Below the pieces are notes generated by a model. That model ran no database searches. It was not told where the DNA came from and saw nothing but the letters and a program-made list of their open reading frames with translations. The position numbers and the translations under genes are program-made. This document shows, in pieces, positions 29,937 to 63,715 of a stretch of DNA of 64,000 nt. Every line of letters starts with the position of its first letter. Position 1 is the first letter of the stretch. Source of the DNA: Phycisphaerae bacterium (GTDB lineage: Bacteria > Planctomycetota > Phycisphaerae > UBA1845 > Fen-1342); contig JAUIEC010000001.1 in assembly GCA_030428945.1 (NCBI GenBank), positions 468,438 through 532,437 on the forward strand, in the 5' to 3' direction.

Positions 29937-29979
29937 GATCCCCGTTCGGCCTGCCACGGTCGGACGGGGATCTTCTTTT
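29937..29979 (+). terminator. Rho-independent terminator, possibly bidirectional
   Basis: GATCCCCGT (29937-29945) pairs with ACGGGGATC (29964-29972), followed by TTCTTTTT. The minus strand reads GCGTTTTC after the same stem, so it may also stop plsC transcripts. Confidence 0.85.
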
Positions 29980-30005
29980 TGGCCAGGGAGCCGGGGAGTG
30001 AGCGG

Positions 30006-62359: not shown

Positions 62360-62418
62360 CCCGCCGCACTCGGGTGAAAAGCCGAGGGCTGCAACCGGGC
62401 CGTCAGGCCTCCGCATGC

Positions 62419-62451
62419 GGCCGGATTCACGCCAGGCGCCTGCATCCGGCC
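62419..62451. other. Inverted repeat upstream of the lipocalin gene
   Basis: GGCCGGAT and ATCCGGCC pair across 17 nt. No T-run; possible regulatory or 3' processing structure between yebC and the lipocalin gene. Confidence 0.35.
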
Positions 62452-62504
62452 AGCCCCGGCGGACGAATTCCCTCCCGATCGGTCATTCAGTCGGAGAGAT
62501 TGCC

Positions 62505-63113
62505 TTGGGAGCCACCGCCCGGTTGCTGGTGTGCGTCGTCGTGCTGCTGGCCGGCTGTGGTCAGCCGGACACGCGTCAGGCTGCGGCCGGGCAGCCTGAG
62601 ATGGCCTCGGATACGCGGCCGGGTCCGGTTCGGGCGGTCAACTGGAAGGTCGATCTGACCCGCTACAGCGGCAAGTGGTACGAAATCGCCTACTACCCGG
62701 CCCGCTTCTCCGAGGGCTGCACGGCCACGACGGCCGAGTACGCGCTGCGGGAGGACGGGCGTCTGGCGTGCGTCAACCGCTGCCGGGACGAGCGGCCGAC
62801 CGGCAAGGCCCGCAGCACGGAAGGGGTCGGCAGAGTGGTCGACCCGGCCACCAACGCGAAGCTGCGGTTCACGTACTACCTGGTGTTCAAGGGCGACTAC
62901 TGGATCATCGACCTCGACCCGGAATACCGCTGGGCCGTGGTCAGCGATCCGAAACGCAAGACGCTGTTCATTCGCAGCCGCACGCCACGGCTCGACCCGC
63001 AGATCTACGCCGGCATCCTCGAACGGCTGGCCGTCCAGGGGTTCGACCTTGAGCGGATTGAGCGGACTGTCTGGCCGGAAAGCGTCGCGGATCCCTCTGA
63101 GCCCAATCCATAA
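62505..63113 (+). CDS. blc: Lipocalin, Blc-type outer-membrane lipoprotein
   Basis: Blc-type bacterial lipocalins bind lysophospholipids or fatty acids in the envelope. The 202-residue lipoprotein has the signal GATARLLVCVVVLLAGC, Cys18. The lipocalin GxW motif is in YSGKWYEIAYYP (about 50-61). The C-terminal pair YWIIDLDPEYRWAVVSDP and TLFIRSRTPRL also fits. TTG 62505 has GGAGAG 7 nt upstream; the longer frame from 62415 is unlikely. A terminator hairpin starts at the stop codon. Confidence 0.87.
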   Translation: MGATARLLVCVVVLLAGCGQPDTRQAAAGQPEMASDTRPGPVRAVNWKVDLTRYSGKWYEIAYYPARFSEGCTATTAEYALREDGRLACVNRCRDERPTGKARSTEGVGRVVDPATNAKLRFTYYLVFKGDYWIIDLDPEYRWAVVSDPKRKTLFIRSRTPRLDPQIYAGILERLAVQGFDLERIERTVWPESVADPSEPNP

Positions 63114-63147
63114 CCCACTGACACCGTGTGGTTTGTGGGTTTCTTCC
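63112..63147 (+). terminator. Terminator-like hairpin after the lipocalin gene
   Basis: AACCCAC (63112-63118) and GTGGGTT (63135-63141) form a 7-bp stem followed by TCTTCCC. Confidence 0.55.
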
Positions 63148-63189
63148 CAAATTGGCACTTTTTCTTGCGCGCCGGCCGGCCGTTTTGAC

Positions 63190-63431
63190 GCTCTTGATTA
63201 ATGAAGGCAGGGTTACCGAAACCAAGACCCGAGAGCGTGGTAGCAGTCGGAGAAAGGCTCTTCCTGCCCGTGAACCAGCTTGAGCTCTTTCTACCCCTCC
63301 GGAGAGCCCCGGTCCGGCCCTTGTGGTCGGGTCGGGGCTGCTCCATTCGGCGCATCTGGGCAGCGCCGGCCTGCATGGCAAACTCGGCCCCTCTCCCGGT
63401 GGGGAGCCCGGCGCAGGGGCCTTTTGATTTT
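63190..63431 (+). ncRNA. Candidate structured non-coding RNA
   Basis: This 317-nt gap has no protein-like frame but holds nested hairpins on the plus strand. GGCAGG (63206) and GAGAGC (63231) pair with GCTCTTCCTGCC (63257-63268), leaving a one-sided bulge GTTACCGAAACCAAGACC. GCTCT/AGAGC pair at 63284/63303. A symmetric stem CCCCGGTCCGGCC with GGTCGGGTCGGGG sits at 63307-63337. GCTGC/GCAGC follows. It ends in GGCCCCT/AGGGGCC plus TTTTGATTTT (63386-63431), a good rho-independent terminator. An ATTAAT box lies near 63197; the start is unknown. The family is not recognised; I rejected SRP, 6S, tmRNA and RNase P by motif. Confidence 0.4.
63386..63431 (+). terminator. Rho-independent terminator
   Basis: GGCCCCT (63386-63392) and AGGGGCC (63415-63421) with an inner CTCCC/GGGGAG stem, then TTTTGATTTT. 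It marks the 3' end of a plus-strand transcript that contains no obvious gene. It overlaps the stop region of the minus-strand gene at 63431. Confidence 0.75.
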
Positions 63432-63715
63432 CAGATCTGTTCGCCGCATTCGGGGCAGCGCGGCTCGCGGAGTCCGCGCAGAATGTAGCGGCATCGCCGG
63501 CAGCGGGTCTCCTCCGACCCGGTCCGGTCCGTCCACCAGACCATCACCCAACCCAGCCCGGTCAGCCCCAGCAGGCCGGTCCCCAGCGGAACCTGCACCG
63601 CCTCGTAGCTGATCATCAGCGACCCGGGCTGCACCGCAACCAGCCACCAGAAGACCACCGACACCGCGGCCAGACCGATCGTCAGGAAGATGTTCACCCG
63701 CTGCATGCGCCGCAA
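63431..63715 (-). CDS. Small membrane protein with C-terminal zinc ribbon
   Basis: The 94-residue protein has two hydrophobic helices (about 9-29 and 40-60). A C-terminal zinc ribbon CRRCRYILRGLREPRCPECG (CxxC...CPEC) follows. This short ribbon is widespread as a tail in planctomycete membrane proteins, and its partner is unknown. No signal peptide is predicted beyond the first helix. The start is uncertain. It lies 67 nt downstream of the truncated GGDEF gene on the same strand. Confidence 0.8.
   Translation of the reverse strand: MRRMQRVNIFLTIGLAAVSVVFWWLVAVQPGSLMISYEAVQVPLGTGLLGLTGLGWVMVWWTDRTGSEETRCRRCRYILRGLREPRCPECGEQI

Follow-up and report, generated by a model that had tools for sequence, protein, structure and literature searches.

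Genomic Context and Structure of the Locus

The stretch under study (63190-63431) belongs to a 64,000-nucleotide piece of a Phycisphaerae bacterium genome, hereafter the window, and lies between a lipocalin gene on the forward strand and a gene on the reverse strand that codes for a 94-residue protein with a weak zinc-ribbon match (Table 1). The sequence-only reading of this DNA had described the interval as non-coding, and this holds: no recognized gene is placed within 63114-63430 and the open reading frames that cross it have no Pfam match. A coding reading of the stretch was rejected for the same reason and because the seed lengths of the related elements described below differ by non-multiples of three. 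The absence of a match to SRP RNA, 6S RNA, tmRNA, RNase P RNA or a c-di-GMP riboswitch is likewise borne out, since no Rfam family reaches its gathering threshold in the window. A permissive Rfam search of the stretch returned chance-level matches only.

The same reading viewed some 240 nt as a single RNA of nested hairpins, which the folding analysis does not support. The minimum free energy (MFE) of the full 242-nt stretch is -106.8 kcal/mol versus a shuffle mean of -102.1 kcal/mol (z -0.94; 32 of 200 shuffles are as good), so that the impression of nested hairpins is what a GC-rich sequence yields anyway. The excess of structure is local: the segment 63283-63345 has an MFE of -35.5 kcal/mol (z -3.79), a value reached by none of the 200 shuffles, and a weaker excess covers 63213-63345 (z -2.42; 2 of 200 shuffles as good). 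A structured RNA foreign to Rfam is probably present, as had been claimed, but its meaningful unit is the core of about 60 nt at 63285-63345 and not the 240 nt. This core contains an unpaired C/U-rich segment, CUUUCUACCCCUCC, followed by a strong hairpin. In the predicted fold ACCCCUCC (63293-63300) is unpaired. The segment CGGAGAAAG (63248-63256) overlaps the predicted 5' hairpin of Table 1 and, in the MFE fold, pairs in part with the seed region.

The lipocalin gene ends in its own terminator-like hairpin, in agreement with the earlier reading. The terminator attributed to the RNA itself is a more divided case: a hairpin on the plus strand (63386-63421) does occur, and its T-rich tail extends it to 63431, but it is separate, being placed about 40 nt beyond the core, and the fold of 63384-63432 (-22.8 kcal/mol) is not better than its shuffles (z -0.80). 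The RNA was also said to need its own promoter, and none is recognizable. Upstream of the core no sigma-70-like promoter was found, the best candidate being TTGACG at 63185 (7/12, with a poor -10 element); a promoter of another type, or read-through from the lipocalin gene, is possible. A sigma-54-like TTGGCAC-N6-TTGC at 63153-63168 was discarded as probably a chance occurrence, its spacer being one base too long.

Table 1. Features of the locus, in positions of the window.
Feature	Position	Strand	Evidence and remarks
Lipocalin gene	62415..63113	+	Pfam Lipocalin_2, E 7.1e-43; upstream neighbour of the stretch
Terminator-like hairpin ending the lipocalin gene	63105..63141	+	-14.7 kcal/mol, z -2.17
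Predicted 5' hairpin	63251..63292	+	AGAAAGGCUC (5' arm) paired to GAGCUCUUUCU in the seed region; MFE fold only
C/U-rich seed-like stretch CTCTTTCTACCCCTCC	63285..63300	+	Putative counterpart of GCTTCTTTCCCCTCC in intact members; R2/R3 matches, fold
Hairpin GGAGAGCCCCGGUCCGGCC..GGUCGGGUCGGGGCUGCUCC	63301..63344	+	Putative counterpart of the sRNA-family terminator stem; followed by ATTCGG, no U-tract; fold, C26 alignment
Intrinsic-terminator-like hairpin GGCCCCT..AGGGGCC with T-rich tail TTTTGATTTT	63386..63431	+	Sequence; separate from the core
Gene for a 94-aa protein, weak zinc-ribbon	63431..63715	-	Pfam DZR_2, E 0.0089, below cut-off

A Small RNA Family of the Phycisphaerae

A blastn comparison with 60 related genomes revealed no conservation of the full stretch; only a short core recurs. 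The segment 63294-63320 is found again in many genomes of the same taxonomic family, where the shared element has GCTTCTTTCCCCTCCGGAGAGCACCGGG and CCNGGTGCCCTC on either side of a small inner loop, and then a run of T. The hallmark of this small RNA (sRNA) family is GCUUCUUUCCCCUCCGG, which hardly varies and leads into an intrinsic terminator. Across 14 aligned copies no change is seen in the first 28 columns, an invariance that follows in part from the selection of the copies by CCCCTCCGGAGAGC-CCGG. The GCTTCTTT that comes before it played no part in that selection, and it recurs in the copies that the model found later.

A covariance model of these 14 copies, all from one taxonomic family (R1), detected the sRNA in 26 of the 27 genomes of the window's taxonomic family and in 164 of 397 sampled Phycisphaerae genomes, with one to five copies each; the class-level figure describes a sample of mostly incomplete metagenome assemblies, and the model E-values are rough. 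The GTDB records that contain the exact core are Phycisphaerae or Planctomycetota metagenome-assembled genomes. Outside the class, a sample of the phylum gave weak matches only, all of them devoid of the seed. Five blastn or R1 matches (L024, L026, L160, L162 and L163) lack the terminator of the family and were set aside.

The pairing of the terminator stem is conserved through covariation. Among 56 aligned members from throughout the class, each of the 14 stem pairs has changed on both sides and 97.4% of the cells are paired; double changes occupy 118 cells, versus a shuffle mean of 25 and 12-28 in slid controls. The R1 structure guided this alignment and biases it in its own favour, although R1 derives from a single taxonomic family. 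The family exists, is conserved and covaries in its stem, and it almost certainly represents a genuine family of RNA genes. It is recorded in no RNA catalogue searched, and the members submitted to Rfam gave no match at the gathering threshold. To our knowledge, no small regulatory RNA family has been characterized in Phycisphaerae, and none was found in the open literature searched.

Anatomy, Context and Promoters of the Intact Copies

The intact copies are short or long, with start sites assigned from the consensus in both cases. Short copies have a promoter resembling TTGACA-17-TATACT; their RNA would start at about GCUUC and measure about 60 nt. Long copies contain an additional 5' hairpin and would reach about 110-140 nt. 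In the core folds of intact copies the seed is unpaired and abuts the terminator stem. Seed variants, among them CTTTCTCCCC, TTTTCTCCCC and CTTTCTCTCC, occur in other taxonomic families and in the diverged copy C26 of the window's own genome.

The gene upstream of the sRNA is common within taxonomic families and differs between them. In the window's taxonomic family, long copies lie on the same strand, 3' of an mnmE-like gene (L038 and others), and in other taxonomic families 3' of a ribonucleotide-reductase-like gene, again on the same strand (L124, L184); both genes were named by eye. Downstream of the sRNA, in 79 loci, the genes belong to many families; 36 of them share its strand and 43 lie on the opposite one. 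Such varied neighbours fit an independent, trans-acting RNA. They weigh against a cis-acting role of the sRNA, as leader or attenuator of the gene that follows, and so does the next gene in the window, which is on the opposite strand. The terminator at the end of every intact copy would suit a leader, and so would the GGAGG of many long forms, able to pair with the CCUCC beside the terminator stem, but with the downstream strands so divided we regard a leader as very improbable.

Of 44 long copies, 20 have this GGAGG at a distance of 20-90 nt before the core, mostly at 36-53 nt (shuffled mean 4.9, largest 12), where it sits near the presumed 5' end (e.g., L064, L067, L124 and L178). Judging from complementarity, it could mask the molecule's own CCUCC seed. 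The CGGAGAAAG segment of the window may be the same feature, an equivalence that is uncertain.

The promoters described here are consensus matches. In addition to the sigma-70-like type, the motif TNAAG-N16-RHCGA precedes 16 of 17 copies in three taxonomic families (L181-L200, L211-L214), with a shuffled mean of 0.05. In the genomes of two of these three families, the flagellin genes (L225-L248) are preceded by TNAAG-N14-NNCGATAA, which is like sigma-28 promoters. The spacer is two bases shorter at the flagellin genes than at the sRNA copies, and the difference is constant.

Some copies depart from the common plan. L025 (= L136), in genome G011, has a canonical promoter and seed, but the stem of its terminator stops short after CACCGGACCGCCTTA; another hairpin, with TTTT, is found further on, which adds a second copy whose end is altered. 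L161, L165 and L166 are third, weaker copies elsewhere in the taxonomic family, in which the seed (CTTTCCCCCATTGG, CTTTCCCCCTCCGG) or the stem has changed and the U-tract is intact. These three suggest that the sRNA family diversifies within genomes.

The Window Core as a Probable Member of the Family

Within the 5.5-Mb genome that holds the window, R1 recovered a canonical copy (C18, 86.8 bits) and the diverged C26 copy (30.3 bits), and assigned 17.8 bits to the window core (E 1.5 per genome). With a wider model, R2, C26 rose to 45.3 bits and the window core to 24.0 bits (63286-63353; E 0.015), the third score in the genome. Since R2 includes copies of this genome, a further model, R3, was built without any sequence from it. 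R3 gave C26 35.3 bits and the window core 22.0 bits (63286-63349), with an E-value of 0.001 for 70 kb, or about 0.08 scaled to the genome. In 286 kb of other loci the runner-up with R3 reached 17.2 bits and covered the stem only; the single match above it was the window copy again (L001). The local alignment of the stretch to C26 (AGC-TCTTTCT..CCTCCGG--AGAGCCCCG..TCGGGGCT) scored higher than 3000 of 3000 shuffles and higher than any other tile of the window. A second C26 match in the window, near 29950-29985, proved to be only a terminator. The hairpin of C26 also bears a weak resemblance to the F6 sRNA of mycobacteria (RF01791), at 28.1 bits (E 0.19), where the gathering score of that family, 46 bits, is far higher; the other members and the window have no match to F6.

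The window copy has a C/U-rich seed directly before the stem, CUCUUUCUACCCCUCCGG-AGAGC at 63285-63307, and the hairpin at 63301-63344 aligns to the model stem with the pairing pattern of the family, being longer and stronger than in intact copies. Several traits deviate. The seed spacing shows an inserted UA or A versus the other members, and in other species the canonical spacing was present in 31 of 31 GTDB loci. In the predicted fold the seed is partly paired. A U-tract is absent right after the stem, where CTCC-ATTCGGCGC is found instead, and the window copy was therefore classified as a diverged, perhaps decayed, relative rather than an intact member. The strongest hairpin of the core looks like a remnant of the sRNA's own terminator that lacks the U-tract. 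Upstream of the window copy no TNAAG..CGA motif rises above chance, and homology to the corresponding regions of the C18 and C26 copies is no better than in shuffles.

The gene order is not conserved either. The succession of lipocalin, RNA and zinc ribbon was not found in the window's taxonomic family, in which nine other genomes contain lipocalin relatives without these neighbours and without a match to the seed plus hairpin nearby. No orthologue of the window copy was found in the relatives examined, none of which is close to the window's genome.

From the sequence comparisons, the window element is likely to belong to the sRNA family, and, with slightly less assurance, the core at 63285-63345 would be a diverged paralogue that shares a common origin with it. 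The core could also be a GC-rich intergenic hairpin with a fortuitous 14-base match, of no common origin and no function. The R1 E-value and the genome-scaled R3 value are compatible with such a coincidence, as are the exact 14-mer found inside a coding gene of the same genome and the missing U-tract, promoter and synteny. Against it, the match spans seed, stem and spacing in the very stretch chosen beforehand, no shuffle reached the C26 alignment score and nothing comparable appeared in the 286 kb of mostly GC-rich loci; we consider chance a minority reading, though one of some weight.

Alternatively, there may be no separate RNA, and the stretch would be just a 3' untranslated region through which the lipocalin mRNA runs on to the hairpin at 63386-63431. 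The lipocalin gene is on the same strand, that plus-strand hairpin could close its transcript and no promoter of the RNA's own is recognizable; however, a terminator-like hairpin already follows the gene (63105-63141) and the family-like core would be left unexplained, which makes this explanation improbable. It can be reconciled with a paralogue of the sRNA, provided that the copy is a relic or arises by processing of the mRNA. For the favoured reading, a diverged paralogue, the loss of the U-tract and of a recognizable promoter implies that the window copy is decaying or belongs to a longer transcript. Its likely state is that of a relic or of a fragment of a longer transcript ending at 63431, and it is rather doubtful that it is still functional.

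Proposed Mechanism and Comparison with Known Systems

Transcribed from their own promoters, the intact members would expose the C/U-rich seed GCUUCUUUCCCCUCC just before the intrinsic terminator. The CCCCUCC of the seed is complementary to GGAGG, which leads us to infer a trans-acting masking of Shine-Dalgarno sites: the seed would pair with ribosome-binding sites of the GGAGG type and block the translation initiation of several mRNAs. On this complementarity, such pairing is the reasonably probable mechanism of the family. The window copy would keep the seed-like stretch and the hairpin, and would be either decaying or made within a longer transcript that ends at 63431.

A more ambitious picture is a speculation to which we give little credence. 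It combines a class-wide, multi-copy sRNA, whose seed can be masked by its own 5' GGAGG and which in several families has a flagellar-like sigma promoter with a fixed longer spacer, with a third, rewired copy in the window, still transcribed and with its end at the 63431 terminator.

Two characterized systems are comparable, in which the pairing of unpaired stretches of this sort with translation initiation regions is known or proposed. The csRNAs of Streptococcus occur several per genome, measure 51-202 nt and contain an unpaired anti-Shine-Dalgarno stretch and an intrinsic terminator, some of them consisting of the terminator stem-loop only (PMC3091779). They are defined by CiaR-controlled promoters, and their complementarity extends to the start codon (PMC3091779). 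The Phycisphaerae sRNA resembles them in the several copies per genome, the unpaired stretch complementary to the Shine-Dalgarno sequence and the intrinsic terminator; on the other hand, it belongs to another phylum and its promoters are sigma-70-like or TNAAG-N16-RHCGA. The comparison concerns the way of working. The staphylococcal IsrR is a single, Fur-regulated gene whose RNA has three stem-loops, three C-rich regions and a canonical terminator, and its single-stranded C-rich regions pair with the translation initiation region of the targets (PMC9410917). C-rich pairing regions and a terminator are common to both, whereas the Phycisphaerae sRNA has one seed that adjoins the terminator, and the likeness is again one of features.

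The nearly invariant 15-nt seed, the covarying terminator stem, the several copies per genome and the recognizable promoters would together provide the little-studied Phycisphaerae with a defined RNA regulon. The window copy, for its part, would show how copies of such an sRNA decay or change.
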